Source: Muribaculaceae bacterium (lineage in GTDB: Bacteria; Bacteroidota; Bacteroidia; Bacteroidales; Muribaculaceae). Taken from it: 64,000 nucleotides of DNA. The notes beneath the pieces are model-generated. The model had not been told where the DNA came from, made no database searches, and saw only the letters and a program-made list of their open reading frames with translations. Shown here one piece after another: positions 4,702 through 27,637 of the stretch (the first letter of the stretch is position 1; every line of letters starts with the position of its first letter). Position numbers and translations under genes: made by a program. The stretch is from the NCBI GenBank assembly GCA_017405965.1, contig JAFQZK010000015.1, positions 1-64,000 on the forward strand, read 5' to 3'.

Positions 4702-6795
4702 ATGGATAAAAACACTGTAATTGGAATGTTGCTGATGGGACTCGTGATCTTCGGATTCATGTGGCTCCAGCAGCCCAGCGAGGCCGAACTCGCTGAGCGT
4801 CAGCGACAAATCGACTCTATCGCGGCGGTTCAGAAGGCTGAACAGGCCCGCGACATCGCTGCCGGTGCCGTGGACACCCTGAGCAGCAGCGAGCTGGCAC
4901 AACTGCAGAGCGTGCTCGAGAATATGCCCCAGGACAATGCCGTCATCAATAACGAGGGTGTGATGATTTCCCTCAAGGACGGCAAGATTGCCGGCACGGT
5001 CACCGTGGCCGACACCACCGTCCAGTGGGACGAGGTGACTGCCGCCACCAGCGCTAACCCCGCCGTGCACAACCTGGCTATCCAAGCCGTGCAGCGTGCC
5101 CTCGACATGTATGCCAAGAACGGCTCGTTTGCTGCTTCGTTGACAGGTACCGAGGAGCTGGTGACCCTCGAGAACGACTCGGTCAAGGTGGAACTCAGCA
5201 CCAAGGGCGGCATCATCGCCCGCGCCACGCTCAAGGGCTATTCAACCTACAAGACGCCGCAGCTCGTCCTGTTCGACAAGGGTGACAACGACTACAGCTT
5301 CACCCTGAGCAACAACACGCAGCGTTTCGAGACCAAGAACTTCTTCTTTGAGCCTAAACGACTCAACGACAGCACGGTGCTGATGAGCTTGCAGCTCGAG
5401 GGTGGCGCCCAGTGGGGTCTCAAATACACCCTCGTGCCCGGCAGCTACATGGTGCGCATGGAGATGGTGCAGCAGAGCATGTCGCGCATCATTCCCTCCA
5501 ACATCAATCTGGTGGACCTCGACTGGCATCAGAAAATCTCGCGTCACGAGTTTGGCAAGCAGTTCGAGGAGCGCAACAGCGGCATCTACTACAAGTTTGC
5601 CGGCAAGGGCGGTGATGTGAAGCACACCAGCGAGAACGGCAGCGACGAGGATGAGGTGAAGGAGAAACTCAAATGGGTGAGCGCCAAGAACCAGTTCTTC
5701 TCGACCGTCCTCATCTGCGACAGTGTGATGAGTACCGCCACGATGACCAGTGTCGATACCAAGGACACGCCCGACTACGAGAAGTACCTCAAGGATGTCA
5801 ACATCCACACGATGATTCCCTATTCGAGCTCGCAGCCCACTCCGGCGTCGTTCTATTTCTACCTGGGTCCCAACCGCTACAAGCTGTTGTCGAGCTATGA
5901 CAAGTATTCTCCCAAGGAGGACCTTAAGCTCACGCACCTGATTCCGCTGGGTTGGAAGTTCTTCCGCTGGATCAATACGGGTATCATCATCCCCGTGTTC
6001 AACTGGCTGGGCAAGTTCATGACCAACTACGGACTCATCATCCTGGTGCTCACCATCCTCATCAAGCTCGTCTTGTCGCCGCTCACCTTCAAGACCTACA
6101 TCTCGCAGGCCAAGATGCGCATCCTTGCTCCCGATATCGCCAAGATCAATGAGCAGTATCCCAACCAGGAGGATGCCATCAAGAAGCAGCAGAAGACGAT
6201 GGAGCTTTATCGTCAGGCAGGTGCCAACCCGATGGGCGGCTGTATGCCCATGTTGCTGCAGATGCCTATCCTGTTCGCGATGTTCACCTTCTTCCCCTCA
6301 TGTATCGAGCTGAGAGGGCAGTCGTTCCTGTGGGCCAATGACTTGAGCGCCCCAGATAAGATTTTGGAGTGGGGCGGTAATATTCCCATCCTGTCGAGTC
6401 TGTTCGGTAACCACTTGAGCCTCTTCTGCTTGCTGATGACCGCCACCAATATCATCTACACGTGGCTCACCACCAAGTCGCAGCCCTCGTCCAACTCGAT
6501 GCCGGGCATGAAGGCGATGATGTATCTCATGCCGCTGATGTTCCTGTTCTTCTTCAACAACTACGCATCGGGTCTGAGCTACTACTACTTCCTGTTCACG
6601 TTGTTCACCATCCTGCAGACCTACCTGAGCCGCTTGTTCGTCAGCGAGGAGAAGGTGCGTGCAACCATGGCTGCCAATGCCACCAAGCCCAAGAAGAAAT
6701 CCAAGTGGATGCAGCGCCTCGAGGAAGCTCAGAAGTTGCAGCAGCAACAGCAGCGCCAGCAGGCCAAGGGTGGTAACACCAAGCGCCGCCGTTGA
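4702..6795 (+). CDS. yidC: Membrane protein insertase YidC
   Basis: YidC/Oxa1-family insertase that places and folds proteins in the inner membrane, alone or with SecYEG. At 697 residues it has the long Gram-negative form: an N-terminal membrane anchor (about residues 6-21), a large periplasmic beta domain (about 120-400), and a C-terminal five-helix core beginning around NYGLIILVLTILIKLVLSPL. The core contains QAKMRILAPDIAKINEQYP and the conserved NPMGGCMPMLLQMPI segment. The tail is rich in Lys, Arg and Gln (ending NTKRRR), fitting ribosome contact. It lies 116 bases after pyrG. The spacer shows no clear terminator, so shared transcription is possible. Confidence 0.96.
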   Translation: MDKNTVIGMLLMGLVIFGFMWLQQPSEAELAERQRQIDSIAAVQKAEQARDIAAGAVDTLSSSELAQLQSVLENMPQDNAVINNEGVMISLKDGKIAGTVTVADTTVQWDEVTAATSANPAVHNLAIQAVQRALDMYAKNGSFAASLTGTEELVTLENDSVKVELSTKGGIIARATLKGYSTYKTPQLVLFDKGDNDYSFTLSNNTQRFETKNFFFEPKRLNDSTVLMSLQLEGGAQWGLKYTLVPGSYMVRMEMVQQSMSRIIPSNINLVDLDWHQKISRHEFGKQFEERNSGIYYKFAGKGGDVKHTSENGSDEDEVKEKLKWVSAKNQFFSTVLICDSVMSTATMTSVDTKDTPDYEKYLKDVNIHTMIPYSSSQPTPASFYFYLGPNRYKLLSSYDKYSPKEDLKLTHLIPLGWKFFRWINTGIIIPVFNWLGKFMTNYGLIILVLTILIKLVLSPLTFKTYISQAKMRILAPDIAKINEQYPNQEDAIKKQQKTMELYRQAGANPMGGCMPMLLQMPILFAMFTFFPSCIELRGQSFLWANDLSAPDKILEWGGNIPILSSLFGNHLSLFCLLMTATNIIYTWLTTKSQPSSNSMPGMKAMMYLMPLMFLFFFNNYASGLSYYYFLFTLFTILQTYLSRLFVSEEKVRATMAANATKPKKKSKWMQRLEEAQKLQQQQQRQQAKGGNTKRRR

Positions 6796-6915
6796 GAGGA
6801 GAGTTCGCACGGTTAAAATGAGAGTTTTTAGAAGAATTGGTACGATTGTTGCAACTTTTTGAGTGTACCGTTCGTCTAAAGGGTACAAGTTACTAATCAT
6901 TAAATAAGTAAGAAT

Positions 6916-7359
6916 ATGTACATACATCAGTGCCCCGAGTGCGGGAAACAGTACAGCACTCAAGAGAAGGTTAACCGTGTAAAGTGCCCTTATTGCGGCG
7001 CTGAGACCAACGTATCCTATAGCGAGCAGCAACCTAACTATCAGGAGCAGTGGCGCCAGTTCAGCAACCAGGCATCCGAAGCCCTCGATAGCGTGTTCAA
7101 CAACGGTCCTTCGGGCAAGAGCCGCGGCATCGCCGGCTTGCTCGCCATCCTGATGGGGTGGTGCGGACTGCACTACTTCTACATCGGCAAGAGCTCGGCA
7201 GGTGTGTTGTTCCTGCTCATCGCCATCTGCTCGTGTGGTATTTTTGCCACAATAACTACCATTGTGTCCATCATTCAGGGTGTGCTGTTCTTCACTTCGA
7301 CGCAGGAGGAATTTGAGCGCAAGTGGGTGAATTGCCCGTCCAATGTCCCGTTATTCTAG
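6916..7359 (+). CDS. TM2-domain protein with N-terminal zinc ribbon
   Basis: A 147-residue protein. Residues 1-32 form a zinc-ribbon-like knuckle pair (CPECG and CPYCG). A Gln/Asn-rich linker follows, then a TM2 domain (about residues 73-132) with two hydrophobic helices joined by the conserved GLHYFYIGK turn. TM2 proteins are small inner-membrane proteins of unclear function. The gene opens a tight plus-strand cluster, ending 14 bases before the GH25 gene, which suggests co-transcription with envelope proteins. The domain call is firm. The role is unknown. Confidence 0.85.
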   Translation: MYIHQCPECGKQYSTQEKVNRVKCPYCGAETNVSYSEQQPNYQEQWRQFSNQASEALDSVFNNGPSGKSRGIAGLLAILMGWCGLHYFYIGKSSAGVLFLLIAICSCGIFATITTIVSIIQGVLFFTSTQEEFERKWVNCPSNVPLF

Positions 7360-20798: not shown

Positions 20799-21119
20799 TT
20801 AAGCAATGACTTCTTTAATCTCAAGCTGAGTGAACTGCTGGCGATGGCCGTTCAAGCGGCGATAGCCTTTGCGACGTTTCTTCTTGAAAACGATGATGTG
20901 TTCACCTTTCACGAGGGGAGTCTTTACCTCGCAAACAACCTTTGCACCTTCGACGGTAGGTGCGCCAACCTTAACGGCACCGTCGGCATCCACGAGAAGG
21001 ACGCGGTCGAACTCTACAGAGTCACCTTCCTTGCGCTCGTCGCCGAGGTAGTGGACATACAACTTCTTGCCGGTCTCGACACGGAACTGCTGTCCCTGAA
21101 TCTCTACAATTGCGTACAT
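20799..21119 (-). CDS. rplU: 50S ribosomal protein L21
   Basis: A 106-residue large-subunit protein that binds 23S rRNA. The N-terminal [20 protein letters not shown] and the basic C-terminal [19 protein letters not shown] motif are diagnostic. It is the first gene of the rplU-rpmA operon, with a promoter about 95-125 bases upstream. Confidence 0.98.
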
Positions 21120-21242: not shown

Positions 21243-21324
21243 GCAACTAAAGATGATTTTTTGACTTATTTGCGTAAAATGCCAATAGAGAATATTGTTG
21301 TATACTTTTTAATCCGGCCAACAC

Positions 21325-21356
21325 TTTGCGGTTTCGCTTTTTTTGTAGTATTTTTG
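21325..21356 (+). promoter_or_regulatory. Promoter of the STAND NTPase gene
   Basis: TTTG (21325-21328), 20-base spacer, TATTTTTG (21349-21356). This is an exact Bacteroidetes consensus match, giving a leader of about 135 bases before the 21500 start. It is divergent from the rplU promoter, about 85 bases away. Confidence 0.75.
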
Positions 21357-21392
21357 CATCAATCGGTTTGCATATGAGGCATTAATACATGA

Positions 21393-21450
21393 TGTTGAGT
21401 GTAACATTCATATTGTTGAGCAGGGTACTTCGAGGCTGCTAAACTCAACA
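21393..21450 (+). promoter_or_regulatory. Leader hairpin and TGTTGAG repeats before the STAND gene
   Basis: TGTTGAG occurs twice as a direct repeat (21393-21399 and 21414-21420), and its complement CTCAACA stands at 21444-21450. The second copy and the complement can pair as the outer part of a hairpin, extended inside by CAG (21421-21423) with CTG (21436-21438). The structure lies in the predicted untranslated leader and could be a protein-binding operator or an RNA element. No T-tract follows, so it is not an obvious terminator. Confidence 0.5.
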
Positions 21451-21499
21451 CCGCCACTTATCATTATAGCAGAATTATTACCAAAATAGTATTTTAATT

Positions 21500-24400
21500 A
21501 TGGGCACTTTACGCAAACACTATATTAGGTTTTTCATATCATCTACATTTGATGACATGAAATACGAAAGAGACTGGCTTGCCAATATTTTTCATCGTCT
21601 TGGCGAAGAATATCAACGAGAAAAAGGATGGATTGTTGAATATGTAGATCTGCGATGGGGAGTTTCTCTGGAAGCTGGTCGCGATAATAAAACCATGTCA
21701 ATCTGTAAAGCCCAAATAGCGCAATGTCAACGATTGTCACCTCGTCCCAACTTTATTTTTTTATTGGGAGAGCGTTATGGCTGGGTGCCACTACCTGAAA
21801 CTATCAACCCCGTAATGGGCGCTTTGCTTCATAACTCGGATCAGTTCTTTGAATTCTATCGCCAAGATGAAAATGATATTAGTTATAAAAATTACTACAA
21901 TAATGCGCCATGGATTGTAAAAAAGTTGATTCATGCCTGTGGAACATCACCATGGTCATTAAGACCTGTTCATGAAATTTGTACTGACCATCTTGAAAAA
22001 GACAGCGATACCCTACGAGATTTATTGTCTCGCAGGGCAAAACAGATTTTAAAGTATGAGAAAGAAAAATCGTCTGAACTTTATGGTTCGGCTACAGAAA
22101 AAGAAATTATAGACGGCGTATTTTATGCTACTGATCCTCAAGAACATGTTATCGGCTACTTTAGGAAATTGACCGATTTGCCCATCGAAAAACAAGCATT
22201 ATTTAAATCCGAAAAGAAGTATGAAAGTAAAATCAAGGATTTGGAAAAGAGATTAAAAGAGCGTCTACCCATGGAGCATCTTCTTCAAGAGAACCTTACC
22301 TTTGAAAAGTACAATTGCCAAGAGTATGCCGACCATTTCATACAAAAGATGGAAGGATTGATTCGAAAAATGATAGATGAAGAAATAGAACGTGCATCAA
22401 TGGATGAGCCAACACTATTGCAGAAGGAGGTGATCCAACAAGAAGAGTATCGATTGTCTAAATCTTATGGTTTATTTGCTCGTAAAGAAGAGATTGAAAG
22501 GGTTAAAGGTTTTATCAATACTGACTGTGCACACACACTATGGATTACGGGTATGAGAGGAGTGGGCAAGAGCACACTAGCGTCCTTTATCCCTGAAATT
22601 GTTCAGGAACTGAACAGTGCCTCCAATATTCAAAGGCAAGTCAATGCCTTTTATATTAGATGTGGGTTGACTTCTGTCTCTCAGATTGCGATTCGTATCG
22701 TCAACGTGCTTCATGCCATGGTTTTTTCTTGCTATAATAATTCTGGAAAAATACATCCTAGATTAACAACACCCATTTTGTTGGAATCGGATAATGCTGA
22801 CTATGACGGCACGTCGACGGGTATTTATAAACAACACTATCATTTTATAAAATACCTATTTGACGATATAGCTAAGCATTATGATGATCCTGTAGTTGTG
22901 ATAATTGACGGAATCGATTGTTTATCATCTAAAGAACAAGAAAAGCTGTTCACAATACCATGGATGTCACCAAATGCGGCTTTCATCAAATTTGTATTCA
23001 CTACTGACCATCTAGATGCTGATTTCAATCCATCTGATGGAATTGAGATTATGCATTTGGAACCATTCGACCCTGTTGAAGGAAAGATGATCATCAAGAA
23101 TATACTTGAAAATAAGGATAGAACACTTACCCATCCTCAAGAGCAAAAAGTGTCACAATGGCTTAATGCTACACACTACACTGGAACAAGTCTTGAATTA
23201 ATGGGGTATTTTTTAACACACTTTGTCTATAGTTGGACAATAGCTGAGAATTTACCATGCCCCAATGAGGACATTCTACTCAAAATTATCAACACAATTA
23301 TTAAAGACCAGTATCACAATGAAGATTTCGTATGGCGCGTTCTAACGCTAATTGCCTTAACACATGGAATCAATGATAGCGAATTAATCGAGATTTTGGC
23401 TCTTGACCACGAACTGCATGACATAATGATGGGTCCAACTGAAAAGAAATTATCTCCTATTTTTTGGTATAGGCTCTCACATGACATCGGCGAATTGGTA
23501 AACTACTATAGCGCCCCATATGGTGAAACCAATCAGTTTCAGAACGTCGACATTAAAGATAGGGTTATAGAATATGCCCATAAAAGGACTGTTGGGAAAA
23601 CGACATTATATCAAAGGGTGGTCGAACTTCAATACAACTACTATAAAAGTCGATGGATAAAGGAAAACTTGAGAGCATTGTACGACATGCCCAATTTCAT
23701 CCTCTCCTATTATGGTGAAGATTCAATCGAAGGATTAAGAGAATTATTGAGGTTGGCTTTTGACCTGCGCTACACAAGCAGGGTTACAGAGCATTATGGC
23801 CATCACATTGGATTATTATTTGACATTATTCTCAATCATCCAGCCGGCTTTGGGCAAGCCTTTATTGAGGCTCAGGATAGAACTATCCTGCAGCAAATCA
23901 GGAATTGGCTTTTTGCTCGCTCTGGTATGGGACATGAACAAATTATGCTCCAATCCCTCAACGAAGCTGATGATTCACCAATAAGACGATGTTATATTGA
24001 TGGTTCAATTTGTGAGGATTCATTTACCAACCTGTTTCGCAATACCATTGGTAAAGATACAGTCCTCTATTATCCCGACGAAGATTTCAGCCCAATCGGC
24101 ATGAGCCAGGATTCCATGCGGGTTTTGTACATCAAACAATATAATATTGCTAAGAATCATCAAGAACTCATTTATATTAATAGAGCTAACTGGAAGAAAT
24201 CAATTATTATATTGTCCGGAAAGATTTCTCATATTTGTGTTGATGAAACCATAACACGAGTTGCAGTACTTTTTTCAGATAATAGCGTCAAAGTGTACTC
24301 AATAGATGATAGGAACGTGATTATTGGTTTTTCAGGCGGTTCCAAGATAGATTGTATCTCAATCTCGCCTGACGGTAACCTTGTAGCAATATCATTAGAG

Positions 24401-26323
24401 AAACAATATTGCATCTGGAGCATTGATGAAAACCAGTGGATTTACAATGAGAACACAGATGAAAAAATCTCATCTCTGTTGTTCTCGAATACGAGTAATT
24501 CGTTGTGGTTAGTGAATAGGCCAAACATAACTTTATTCGTAATCAACCAAAATGTTGTGTGGAGTTGGGAAATGTCTGATTTACTCTCAAAAGAAATTGA
24601 TTCAAGGTTATTGGCAGCAACTGACCGACAATGCTTAATTGATCAGCCTTGGGGACCAATTCATCTAAGAATTAAAGAGAATGATGATATGTCGATTTAC
24701 AGGCCAAAACAATTAAGCAGATCTATGGGCTCTTCTAGAGATATCTACGCTGCTTTCAATGACCGCGGCGAGTTATTTGCCTCATCAGATGACCTGCTAT
24801 GGCAAATTCAAAGAGACATTGTAACGCAGCCTGATAATGTCGCTACCATGTTTATGATTTCACGTGATTTGAAGTACGGCTTAGGATTTGATGGTATAGT
24901 GTACGATATTAGAATATGCATTAATAATTATCAGATTGAGACCCAAAGCATAAGTGGTGGACTGATTAATGTCGGATTGAGCAGTATGTCAAGTAGCAAT
25001 GACGGAACATGGGTGTTATGCTCAGGAGGTCGTGATCTATTAAGGCAGAAGGACTTTCAAATTGCATCTGTGATAATTGATGAAAATCATATTGCTCATT
25101 CACGTGTTGGTATTCCGCCGTATACCGATGATGGAATCTTTGCAACAATCTCGTCATCATTATCACCTGATGGCCGCTTGTGCGCATTATCATCATTTGA
25201 TGCAGATTCACTTCATTTATTGCTAATGGATCGTGATTTTAATAGACATCGGTACCTGTTCTTGCCAAAAGCAGTACTCAATGAGAAGAATCCCCACACT
25301 AAAGAAGAACATGAAGATTCTGACGAGTACCTTGGTGCTGCATACTGGAATGCTATTAGAGCCTTTATTTGGTCACAAGACAGCAGTTATATCATAGGTG
25401 CAACTTGGCATGACATTTCAGATTCACATCCCCATCTTCATCTTTTTAATAGAAATGGTGATTATTTGAAAAGCATTCTTTCATCAGAACTGGGTTTGGG
25501 GTATACAACTTTGTTTTCGCCCAATAACCGTTATGCTGTACGTATCAGTTATGATGTTAGCTACGTTGATCTAGAGACTGGAGAACAAGCGTTGTACGAA
25601 ATTCCATATAACAATGATGTGATAAACAACTTCTTGATGCATCCCTCTGGTCGATATGCATTTATCAATATTGAGTTGAATTTATTTGTATTCAATTATA
25701 CTCACAATAGAATTGAATCAAAAAAGGTCGTTGATAGTGTTGGCACTTTGCTAGCCATATCTCCTTCTGGGCGCTATCTGTATTCAAGAGGTGATGGTAA
25801 ACAATTATATCTAATGCGAATAGACCTCGCTGACTTAACCAAGAAGTTTTATCCTTGGAATGCCGAAGATGTAGTGTGTACCCTCAACGATGACTATTTT
25901 TATGTTCGTCTGGATAATGACGATATACTGTTAGTCCAGTCACACTCTGCCGATGTAATGGCCCGAACCAATACATCAGAGGTATCAATGATCAGCACTG
26001 GCTCGGGTCTCGCTGTAGCAGACAAGCATGGCAAATTATTCATGCTAACTCCTAAGGAGTCCGTCCAGCGGAAAATTAATCAATATGGGAATACTACGGC
26101 CATACGATGCTGGAGACACGAAAAGCACCAATGGAATGACCGCCCAAGTGCAGTGTGTCCTTACTGTGGCCAGTTGCTTGAAGTGCCAGATGCTATCCTG
26201 CAACGACTTCAATACGACTTTTCACCAACCCATTATAATGTGCAAGCTGCTGATGAAGATTATTTGTGTTGTCAATGCCAAAAATGCAACAAGTCAATTA
26301 TATATAACTACTATTTAGGCTAA
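21500..26323 (+). CDS. DUF4062-STAND NTPase-beta-propeller-zinc ribbon protein (candidate defence sensor)
   Basis: A single 1607-residue protein. Residues ~5-110 form a DUF4062 domain (IRFFISSTFDDMKYERDWL, VEYVDLRWGVS, FIFLLGERYGWVP), a TIR-like fold also at the N-terminus of eukaryotic TEP1 and NWD1-type proteins. Residues ~320-640 are a STAND/NACHT-type NTPase: lead-in YGLFARKEEIERV, P-loop GMRGVGKST (351-359), Walker B VVVIIDGID (465-473), sensor-like KFVFTTDH. A helical region follows (~640-860), then a long beta-propeller-like stretch (~880-1530) with WD40-type repeats (ISISPDGNLVAISLEKQYCIW). The C-terminus has Cys pairs (CPYCG at 1553, CCQCQKC at 1590-1596) typical of zinc ribbons. STAND proteins sense a ligand through the C-terminal part and activate the N-terminal effector, so phage defence is a reasonable inference. 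The gene is visibly AT-rich (about 35-40 percent GC by eye), unlike its neighbours, suggesting transfer. Confidence 0.85.
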   Translation: MGTLRKHYIRFFISSTFDDMKYERDWLANIFHRLGEEYQREKGWIVEYVDLRWGVSLEAGRDNKTMSICKAQIAQCQRLSPRPNFIFLLGERYGWVPLPETINPVMGALLHNSDQFFEFYRQDENDISYKNYYNNAPWIVKKLIHACGTSPWSLRPVHEICTDHLEKDSDTLRDLLSRRAKQILKYEKEKSSELYGSATEKEIIDGVFYATDPQEHVIGYFRKLTDLPIEKQALFKSEKKYESKIKDLEKRLKERLPMEHLLQENLTFEKYNCQEYADHFIQKMEGLIRKMIDEEIERASMDEPTLLQKEVIQQEEYRLSKSYGLFARKEEIERVKGFINTDCAHTLWITGMRGVGKSTLASFIPEIVQELNSASNIQRQVNAFYIRCGLTSVSQIAIRIVNVLHAMVFSCYNNSGKIHPRLTTPILLESDNADYDGTSTGIYKQHYHFIKYLFDDIAKHYDDPVVVIIDGIDCLSSKEQEKLFTIPWMSPNAAFIKFVFTTDHLDADFNPSDGIEIMHLEPFDPVEGKMIIKNILENKDRTLTHPQEQKVSQWLNATHYTGTSLELMGYFLTHFVYSWTIAENLPCPNEDILLKIINTIIKDQYHNEDFVWRVLTLIALTHGINDSELIEILALDHELHDIMMGPTEKKLSPIFWYRLSHDIGELVNYYSAPYGETNQFQNVDIKDRVIEYAHKRTVGKTTLYQRVVELQYNYYKSRWIKENLRALYDMPNFILSYYGEDSIEGLRELLRLAFDLRYTSRVTEHYGHHIGLLFDIILNHPAGFGQAFIEAQDRTILQQIRNWLFARSGMGHEQIMLQSLNEADDSPIRRCYIDGSICEDSFTNLFRNTIGKDTVLYYPDEDFSPIGMSQDSMRVLYIKQYNIAKNHQELIYINRANWKKSIIILSGKISHICVDETITRVAVLFSDNSVKVYSIDDRNVIIGFSGGSKIDCISISPDGNLVAISLEKQYCIWSIDENQWIYNENTDEKISSLLFSNTSNSLWLVNRPNITLFVINQNVVWSWEMSDLLSKEIDSRLLAATDRQCLIDQPWGPIHLRIKENDDMSIYRPKQLSRSMGSSRDIYAAFNDRGELFASSDDLLWQIQRDIVTQPDNVATMFMISRDLKYGLGFDGIVYDIRICINNYQIETQSISGGLINVGLSSMSSSNDGTWVLCSGGRDLLRQKDFQIASVIIDENHIAHSRVGIPPYTDDGIFATISSSLSPDGRLCALSSFDADSLHLLLMDRDFNRHRYLFLPKAVLNEKNPHTKEEHEDSDEYLGAAYWNAIRAFIWSQDSSYIIGATWHDISDSHPHLHLFNRNGDYLKSILSSELGLGYTTLFSPNNRYAVRISYDVSYVDLETGEQALYEIPYNNDVINNFLMHPSGRYAFINIELNLFVFNYTHNRIESKKVVDSVGTLLAISPSGRYLYSRGDGKQLYLMRIDLADLTKKFYPWNAEDVVCTLNDDYFYVRLDNDDILLVQSHSADVMARTNTSEVSMISTGSGLAVADKHGKLFMLTPKESVQRKINQYGNTTAIRCWRHEKHQWNDRPSAVCPYCGQLLEVPDAILQRLQYDFSPTHYNVQAADEDYLCCQCQKCNKSIIYNYYLG

Positions 26324-26462
26324 TTGCAAAGAGTAGATTTGCCCAATAAGTTGGTCATGCAAGACGCAACTAGCGTGAGGAATTGGTAGCATTATGTCCT
26401 TGGACTATAAAGATTATTAGTCTCGGATTTAATGAGGACAGTTTTTTAGATGTTATTGTGGT

Positions 26463-27230
26463 TTATTTTGTTCTTGGATACCCGTCTAACAAATTGTAGG
26501 GATAGGTGATGTCCCAGAGGAAGAGAGCGTGGCCGGGCATGGAGGTGCCGGCGGCGCAGCGGTCTTTGCGCTCGATGACTTGGCAGAATTCTTCGACCGT
26601 CATCTTGTGGCGGCCCACCTCAACGAGGGTGCCGACGATGGCACGCACCATGTTGCGCAGGAAACGGTCGGCAGTGATGGTGAATATCCATTGGTCGTCA
26701 TCCTCACGTTCCCACTGGGCGTGGGTGACGCGGCAGTTGTTGGTCTTGACATCGGTGTGCAGCTTGGAGAATGAGGTGAAGTCAGTATAGTCCAACAATC
26801 GGGCTGCGGCTTGATTCATCAAGTCAAAATCCAAGTCGGGCGGACATTTCCAGCTCAAGGGGTAGCGGAAGGGATCCTTGCAGGTAACGGCGAAGTACTT
26901 GTAGGTGCGGCTGGTGGCGTCAAAGCGGGCGTGGGCATCGTCATGGACGGGCGTGATGCCGTAGATGGCGATGTCGGGCGGCAGCAGGGCATTGAGGCTG
27001 TGGACCAGGCGGTCAAGGTCGGCAATGGGCGGCTCTGCATCAAAGTGGGCCACCATCAGGCGGGCATTCACGCCGGCGTCGGTGCGGCCAGCGCCCGTCA
27101 CGGGCGTGGGCACACGCAGCAACGTGGCCATAGCTTCCTCGATGACCTGTTGCACCGAGGTGTCGTGGGGCTGAACCTGCCATCCATGGTAGGCCGCACC
27201 CTTGTAACCCAATCTGATAAAGTAGCGCAT
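26463..27230 (-). CDS. truA: tRNA pseudouridine synthase A
   Basis: Converts uridines 38-40 in the anticodon stem-loop of many tRNAs to pseudouridine. The 255-residue length is normal. The catalytic aspartate is Asp51 in GAGRTDAGVNA, and family segments YKGAAYHGWQ near the start and FLRNMVRAIVGTL in the C-terminal half are present. It is the last gene of a minus-strand group with speA and the four-helix-bundle gene. The 139 bases between its stop and the STAND gene hold no recognisable feature. Confidence 0.97.
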   Translation of the reverse strand: MRYFIRLGYKGAAYHGWQVQPHDTSVQQVIEEAMATLLRVPTPVTGAGRTDAGVNARLMVAHFDAEPPIADLDRLVHSLNALLPPDIAIYGITPVHDDAHARFDATSRTYKYFAVTCKDPFRYPLSWKCPPDLDFDLMNQAAARLLDYTDFTSFSKLHTDVKTNNCRVTHAQWEREDDDQWIFTITADRFLRNMVRAIVGTLVEVGRHKMTVEEFCQVIERKDRCAAGTSMPGHALFLWDITYPYNLLDGYPRTK

Positions 27231-27235
27231 CAGTA

Positions 27236-27270
27236 TTAGTCCTTAGTTTTTAGTCCTTAGTCCTTAGTTT
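27236..27270. repeat. Left inverted repeat beside the four-helix-bundle gene
   Basis: A stretch built from CCTTAGT/TTTAGT units. Its first 25 bases (27237-27261) are the exact reverse complement of 27650-27674 on the other side of the gene. It starts six bases upstream of the truA start codon. Confidence 0.85.
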
Positions 27271-27637
27271 ATAACCCTATGTCTGATACCGACTTTGAGA
27301 GTGCATTTATCATTTTAGTGATTTCAACTATGAGGTTTTGAGACAAAGATGTCATAGATGGGTTTAGATATTCTAATCTTTCACATAACTCTAGTTGAGT
27401 GGATAATTCGCAAAGCGAACCTCGAGCCATAGCCAGGAATCGAATGAATTCTTTTGCAGTTATTCGACCTTTTCCCTCTGCTATATTTGAAGGTATAGAC
27501 ACGGCTGCTCTTCTCATTTGGTCAGATAGACCATAAGTTTCTTCTTTGGGAAGGAGTTTGGTCAATCTATAGATTTCAACCGTTAGATCCATAGCTTTTT
27601 GCCAAGCTATCAGGTCTCTAAATGCACTGGATTTCAT
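27269..27637 (-). CDS. Four-helix-bundle protein (23S rRNA intervening-sequence type)
   Basis: A 122-residue all-helical protein of the S23/IVS four-helix-bundle family, with the hallmark FRDLIAWQKAMDLTVEIYRL opening, the central RRAAVSIPSNIAEGKGR motif and FIRFLAMARGSLCELSTQLE. Relatives are encoded in intervening sequences within 23S rRNA and in other intergenic settings, and they resemble the Avd accessory proteins of diversity-generating retroelements. Their role is not settled. The DNA is clearly AT-richer than truA and speA. It lies between 25-bp perfect inverted repeats, with one arm touching the speA stop codon, so it looks inserted as a unit. Confidence 0.88.
   Translation of the reverse strand: MKSSAFRDLIAWQKAMDLTVEIYRLTKLLPKEETYGLSDQMRRAAVSIPSNIAEGKGRITAKEFIRFLAMARGSLCELSTQLELCERLEYLNPSMTSLSQNLIVEITKMINALSKSVSDIGL

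Follow-up and report, generated by a model that had tools for sequence, protein, structure and literature searches.

The window analysed here is a stretch of 64,000 nucleotides from a Muribaculaceae bacterium (assembly GCA_017405965.1, contig JAFQZK010000015.1, positions 1 to 64,000 of the forward strand). Between rplU and truA it carries a single gene for a protein of 1607 residues, which is the subject of this study. The gene is an open reading frame (ORF) with exact boundaries and is the only gene of an inserted segment; its two neighbours are both on the opposite strand. The features of the locus and of the protein are as follows.

20799..21119, minus strand: rplU, the left boundary gene
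21263..26490, no strand: inserted segment of about 5.2 kb, missing from the empty site of relatives
21500..26323, plus strand: the single gene, encoding the putative TIR-like/STAND/propeller/zinc-ribbon protein of 1607 residues (ATG start)
21500..22399, plus strand: DUF4062 putative TIR-like domain with linker, residues 1-300 (Pfam; family profile against 11gz_A)
22103..22105, plus strand: E202, candidate catalytic glutamate in SATEKE (aligned with TEP1 E1008)
22457..23599, plus strand: NACHT/NB-ARC NTPase with winged-helix module, residues 320-700 (Pfam NPHP3_N; APAF-1 profile and Foldseek)
22550..22576, plus strand: Walker A, GMRGVGKST, G351-T359 (translation, alignment with relatives)
22892..22918, plus strand: Walker B, VVVIIDGID, V465-D473 (translation, alignment with relatives)
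23600..24010, plus strand: helical arm, HD2-like, residues 701-837 (predicted models)
24011..26071, plus strand: beta-propeller region, probably two propellers, residues 838-1524
26156..26287, plus strand: C-terminal zinc ribbon, C1553, C1556, C1593 and C1596 (translation, alignment)
26463..27230, minus strand: truA, the right boundary gene

A first-pass annotation, made from the letters alone, had read DUF4062, a P-loop NTPase, a helical stretch, a propeller region and a zinc ribbon in this one ORF, and the order is confirmed by Pfam, translation, alignment and predicted models. In Pfam, DUF4062 matches residues 11-98 (E 3e-10; 40.5 bits against a curated cut-off of 24.7) and the NPHP3_N NTPase matches residues 342-480 above its gathering score (E 1e-9). 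NACHT (E 0.0014), AAA and propeller families around residues 901-1023 are found below their cut-offs. At E values up to 1, Pfam lists no CARD, no TROVE and no DNA-binding output family, and nothing in NCBIfam comes near a cut-off. HTH_NWD1 is not listed for this protein and appears below its cut-off in two relatives, L020 (E 1e-4) and L089 (E 9e-4). In a sequence search of the PDB, residues 9-98 match the TEP1 domain 11gz_A (E 8e-8). With a profile of 21 sequences of the N-terminal half, the match to 11gz_A reaches E 1.3e-41, and APAF-1 is matched at E 1.8e-11 over the NTPase, the winged helix and the helical arm. ORC/Cdc6 proteins follow at E 6e-8 and weaker, and KpSwz (10wc) is matched weakly at E 1.4e-5, over profile positions 8-25 only. 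The zinc ribbon is kept in 8 of the 11 aligned proteins with complete C-termini, this one among them; L095 and L107 show small variants of it.

A bioRxiv preprint of May 2026 (PMC13174449) reports that DUF4062 acts as a TIR-like NADase both in human TEP1 and in an antiphage protein, and the catalytic glutamates are E97 in KpSwz and E1008 in TEP1. We numbered the 220 residues of 11gz_A as 894-1113, presumably correctly, because R908, R954 and R976 then all fall on arginines; this places E1008 at the second glutamate of SVTEMEV. By profile and numbering, E1008 aligns with E202 in the motif SATEKE of the 1607-residue protein. The pattern S-x-T-x-x-E after RYG is present in 85 of 91 sequences (79 of 85 once six repeated rows are removed) and in 4.7% of the same stretches when shuffled; its second glutamate is kept while the first varies. 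Six distinct rows have no match, two of them having RYG without the motif and four lacking the RYG anchor pattern. The motif is visible by eye in L126, L135 and L153, which the pattern does not match, and neither L158 (a doubtful frame) nor L159 (a fragment of 119 residues) matches it; the sixth row is L096, which reads SATEQK. Where both elements were found, RYG and the motif are 77-144 residues apart in the window's clade (6 in L098) compared with 8-41 elsewhere. The head is probably a TIR-like NADase effector, and the earlier proposal that DUF4062 is the effector gains from its membership of a family with reported NADase activity. The TIR-like identity relies on sequence profiles, since the NTPase fills the fold-match lists and the TIR-like part is hardly probed by them.

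The predicted models contain an NB-ARC/winged-helix module after the NTPase core, followed by the helical arm and the propellers. These, together with the Walker A and B motifs, bear out the STAND architecture proposed at first reading, which had been taken to stand or fall with a NACHT-type winged-helix arrangement and a propeller in the predicted structure. They also support the proposal that the propellers are the probable sensor. In Foldseek, the model of the N-terminal half matches APAF-1 (1z6t) at E 1.6e-8. Its second match is 8bob, a structure of maltose regulation that we take to be MalT; Avs3 (8dgc) is among the top matches, and CED-4 is also matched. The model of the arm and propellers matches APAF-1 as well, the alignment (VIA-align) to murine Apaf-1 starting at model residue 46, which is residue 745 of the protein.

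The gain of the gene by insertion at a variable junction is supported by comparison with close relatives. Flank homology to the empty-site loci L038, L040 and L068 stops at 21262 on the rplU side and restarts at 26491-26496 inside the 3' end of truA, so the insert includes about 240 bp before the gene and about 170 bp after it; for L042 the breaks are at 21244 and 26488. The genus search detected truA in 93 of the 101 genomes, with 40 places at an identity of at least 84%, one of which is the window. Among the other 39 places (37 genomes), 28 are empty, with rplU 127-431 bp from truA, and six hold inserts of 1.5-4.8 kb. Five are undecided, four at a contig end and one without rplU in 17.8 kb. 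In five members of the genus that are less closely related, the 2.5-13 kb retrieved downstream of truA showed no rplU. The gene is at the same place in none of the 34 decided places, and by their ORFs none of the six other inserts (L066, L067, L069, L070, L072 and L078) is this gene. With a GC content of about 0.37-0.40 in the gene and 0.46-0.60 in the windows on both sides, the first-pass view of an AT-rich transferred gene is upheld, and the synteny agrees with it.

The contents of the other junction inserts are diverse. They include a DUF4143 ATPase (PADLOC PDC-S01, E 2.9e-98) and a YhcG nuclease (PDC-S02, E 1.7e-134). By inspection, a repeat protein accompanies the nuclease, and there is another repeat protein besides. 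A low-GC operon of three genes has GTPase-like matches, and two probable receptors of the outer membrane (by inspection) have normal GC. Since the PDC models stand for candidates and both families are widespread, this gives moderate support for a defence-prone spot. The host genome (40 contigs, 96% completeness, 0.9% contamination; the gene's contig has 344353 bases) holds one copy by protein search, and the DUF4062 family model matches this gene alone (45.2 bits). Promoter and terminator counts are at chance level and were not used.

A contig profile scan with a five-sequence alignment found 74 loci encoding relatives, most of them matching over the DUF4062 part only; the 1607-residue protein alone as query found none. 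No relatives were found on viral contigs or in phage records, and plasmids gave two matches, to the DUF4062 part only. In a tree of 67 rows (66 loci and the window, leaving out the near-duplicate L087 and the fragments or doubtful frames L102, L105, L128, L134, L157, L158 and L159), the window is on a long branch in a clade of 17 rows (100/100). The labels of this clade are Bacteroidota, Bacillota, Chloroflexota, Fibrobacterota, Armatimonadota, Myxococcota, Calditrichota, Acidobacteriota and Planctomycetota. This makes eight or nine phyla, since the Bacillota label of L097 is doubtful, its sequence being identical to L023 of G094, a genome of the window's own family. Heminiphilus faecis has three diverged relatives (L088, L091 and L092), placed at two positions within the clade, and they resemble a small repertoire of receptors. 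A domain-only tree has the window in a 17-row clade (100/100) and TEP1 among the other 51 rows, in no supported group. L107, with clear WD40 repeats and a zinc ribbon, is also among the 51 rows, and thus the layout occurs on both sides of the 100/100 split. Just upstream of this relative, a phage-type integrase gene (6242-7150; Pfam E 7e-36) was seen in its Zipacnadia genome. In L095 (9266-14449), from Dehalococcoidia, an ordinary TIR domain (TIR_2, E 2e-15) stands ahead of DUF4062, the NTPase, WD40-like repeats and the zinc ribbon, so that by its domain matches the protein has two TIR-type heads.

Within the family, 16 of 397 genomes match at 1e-10 (the window's included), in a tblastn survey that can miss distant relatives, and the match extends past the first 124 residues only in the window's genome and G013. 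TPR matches after DUF4062 and the NTPase, as in NPHP3, were found in 8 of the 15 family proteins scanned by Pfam, a set without L027, which is cut by a contig end. These are L024, L026, L028, L029, L030, L032 and L034, and L025 weakly, below the cut-off. L022 and L023 (the same sequence as L097) keep the catalytic motif of DUF4062 and have a degraded P-loop. Their NTPase switch may therefore be lost or replaced, and the three were excluded from the reasoning on mechanism.

The protein was compared with known systems. Human TEP1, described in the preprint as vault-associated with the order DUF4062-NACHT-WD40 (PMC13174449), shares the TIR-like domain with a glutamate at the catalytic position, the STAND NTPase, the helical region and the propellers. 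TROVE belongs to TEP1, whereas our protein has no TROVE match and does not keep R908 and R954. Its C-terminal zinc ribbon is a probable further difference. Of the earlier label TEP1/NWD1-like, the APAF-1/TEP1-like order of domains stands, but orthology is not supported, and for TEP1 it is rejected: the TIR-like domain lies across the 100/100 split from TEP1, and TROVE is not matched. The apoptosome proteins APAF-1 and Dark share the order of an NB-ARC-type NTPase, a winged helix, a helical arm and then propellers, with a CARD at the N-terminus where our protein has the TIR-like domain, and the zinc ribbon is an addition here. NPHP3, NWD1 and NWD2 share the DUF4062-NACHT order, and our protein matches NPHP3_N, but the NPHP3-like TPRs are found in other bacterial DUF4062 proteins. 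The antiphage proteins Avs and bNACHT are alike in having a STAND NTPase, an N-terminal effector and a C-terminal sensor. The Avs sensor is TPR-like, whereas the C-terminal part here is made of predicted propellers. With Swarozyc (KpSwz) the DUF4062 domain is shared, but KpSwz is a chain of 326 residues with a portal-binding auxiliary domain, and ours has 1607 residues with an NTPase and predicted propellers. Among the matches listed in a literature search on DUF4062, TEP1/NWD1, NPHP3 and antiphage STAND proteins, no bacterial DUF4062-STAND-propeller protein is named in titles or abstract openings, though the supplementary architecture figures of PMC13174449 may show some. The parts are known, and their combination with a zinc ribbon looks like a new variant.

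Neighbour genes of nine relatives were also inspected. In L090 (620-3205), the stop codon of an 862-residue protein, P0002, is 3 nt upstream of the relative. By inspection it has hydrophobic N-terminal segments; it has no Pfam match at 0.01 and no convincing PADLOC match. A motif in it is one that we take to be ryanodine-receptor-like, which Pfam does not list at E up to 1. P0002 may be a partner of its relative. In L094, a MatE gene and the start of the relative share 4 nt. In spite of these close genes, no Pfam family recurs among the nine neighbour genes scanned; a two-gene system was therefore rejected and a single-gene system is preferred.

We suggest, with moderate confidence, that the protein works on its own as an immune sensor of the APAF-1-like STAND kind, which would assemble and deplete NAD+ when the cell is infected. 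The domain order, the conserved glutamate, the Walker motifs, the APAF-1-like predicted fold, the patchy presence and the insertion at a variable site support this. By analogy with APAF-1, the NTPase module would hold a nucleotide in the resting state, with the propellers folded back on it. The propellers, perhaps with the zinc ribbon, would bind an infection signal, for example a structural protein of a phage. The NTPase module would then open and oligomerise, which would bring the TIR-like domains together. These may hydrolyse NAD+, as the conserved glutamate, KpSwz and TEP1 suggest, and the cell would stop or die before the phage matures.

Several observations weigh against this reading. 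The propellers are weak by sequence and clearer by predicted fold, at moderate model confidence (pLDDT 71.6, pTM 0.64). The best APAF-1 rows have low TM-scores (0.33 and 0.35, taken over the models), ORC/Cdc6 proteins fit the NTPase half roughly as well as APAF-1 does, and the C-terminal half is fitted equally well by numerous other WD40 proteins. The propellers do not stand out by their low identity, since the NTPase module and the arm are also divergent: among six close relatives, the window included, pairwise identity averages 43.5% for the TIR-like domain and 32.9% for the ribbon (10 of 15 pairs), against 25.6% for the NTPase module, 20.3% for the propellers and 19.6% for the arm. No PADLOC family, Avs models included, matches the protein at E up to 1. 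The linkage to known defence genes that the first-pass annotation had called for was not found. None of the 38 window ORFs selected (chosen without overlapping opposite-strand ORFs) matches PADLOC at 1e-10. Near the nine relatives, 106 of 152 neighbour ORFs were scanned at 1e-15, leaving out those of L087 and L097 and some short ORFs. They gave one member each for SspA, DndA, two DpdF models and one Cas3 model, matches of desulfurase or helicase type that come without named source ORFs, and none is convincing. A likely source of the helicase matches is a DEAD-box helicase next to L091, which has a DbpA domain.

The activity of the head is where a second immune model departs from the one above. 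It is conceivable, if rather unlikely, that the head is an enzymatically silent adaptor, or that it makes a signal nucleotide for a separate effector. In the preprint, human NWD1, NWD2 and NPHP3 are reported to show no NADase activity in the assay (PMC13174449). Two of the three TEP1 active-site arginines are changed in our protein (R908 to D18 and R954 to K64; R976 is kept as R92), and L096 (5928-8600), a member of the clade, reads SATEQK with lysine at the catalytic position, which suggests a head without NADase activity there. These three points also weigh against the first model. P0002 could be such a downstream partner, but the insert between rplU and truA holds no further gene and the glutamate is conserved in most of the distinct sequences counted above. 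Less probable still is a STAND signalling protein with a task outside immunity, for example in stress or metabolic sensing. MalT senses maltose in this way, the second Foldseek match of the N-terminal half (8bob) is a structure that we take to be MalT, and clear defence neighbours are missing. However, the N-terminal domain comes from an NADase family, no DNA-binding output family is listed by Pfam at E up to 1, and absence from all decided junctions speaks against a core task.

Nothing in the data favours phages over other mobile DNA, and the same NADase logic could be directed at plasmids or conjugative elements. We give this little credence, as KpSwz, which alone among DUF4062 systems has a known trigger, responds to a phage portal according to the preprint (PMC13174449). 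A decaying relic without function, which the single copy, low GC and long branch might suggest, is hardly credible for a frame of 1607 codons without stops that keeps both Walker motifs, E202 and all four cysteines of the zinc ribbon.

If the immune-sensor reading is true, DUF4062 defence would include large NLR-like sensors as well as short proteins that bind the portal. The preprint reports human TEP1 to be an NADase of the vault and puts forward, as speculation in its authors' own word, an activation model like that of APAF-1 (PMC13174449). A bacterial protein of similar layout without a vault would allow this model to be tested in E. coli, including which signal the propellers bind, whether a ring forms and whether NAD+ is destroyed. 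More tentatively, and with rather less than even belief, we hypothesize that bacteria have true apoptosome-like machines, in which a propeller-locked STAND ring has a TIR-like NADase as its executioner. The propeller (TEP1/NWD1) and TPR (NPHP3) layouts would coexist in Bacteroidota as diversifying immune receptors. With both already side by side there, the eukaryotic proteins would have been inherited as ready-made bacterial immune sensors. The zinc ribbon that follows the propellers would be a shared, undescribed sensor part.

One further gene lies beside truA. It encodes a protein of 122 residues (27269-27637) that is unmatched at this place in other loci, apart from L048, L054 and L057, where it is also beside truA; we take it to be a four-helix-bundle protein of the S23 type.
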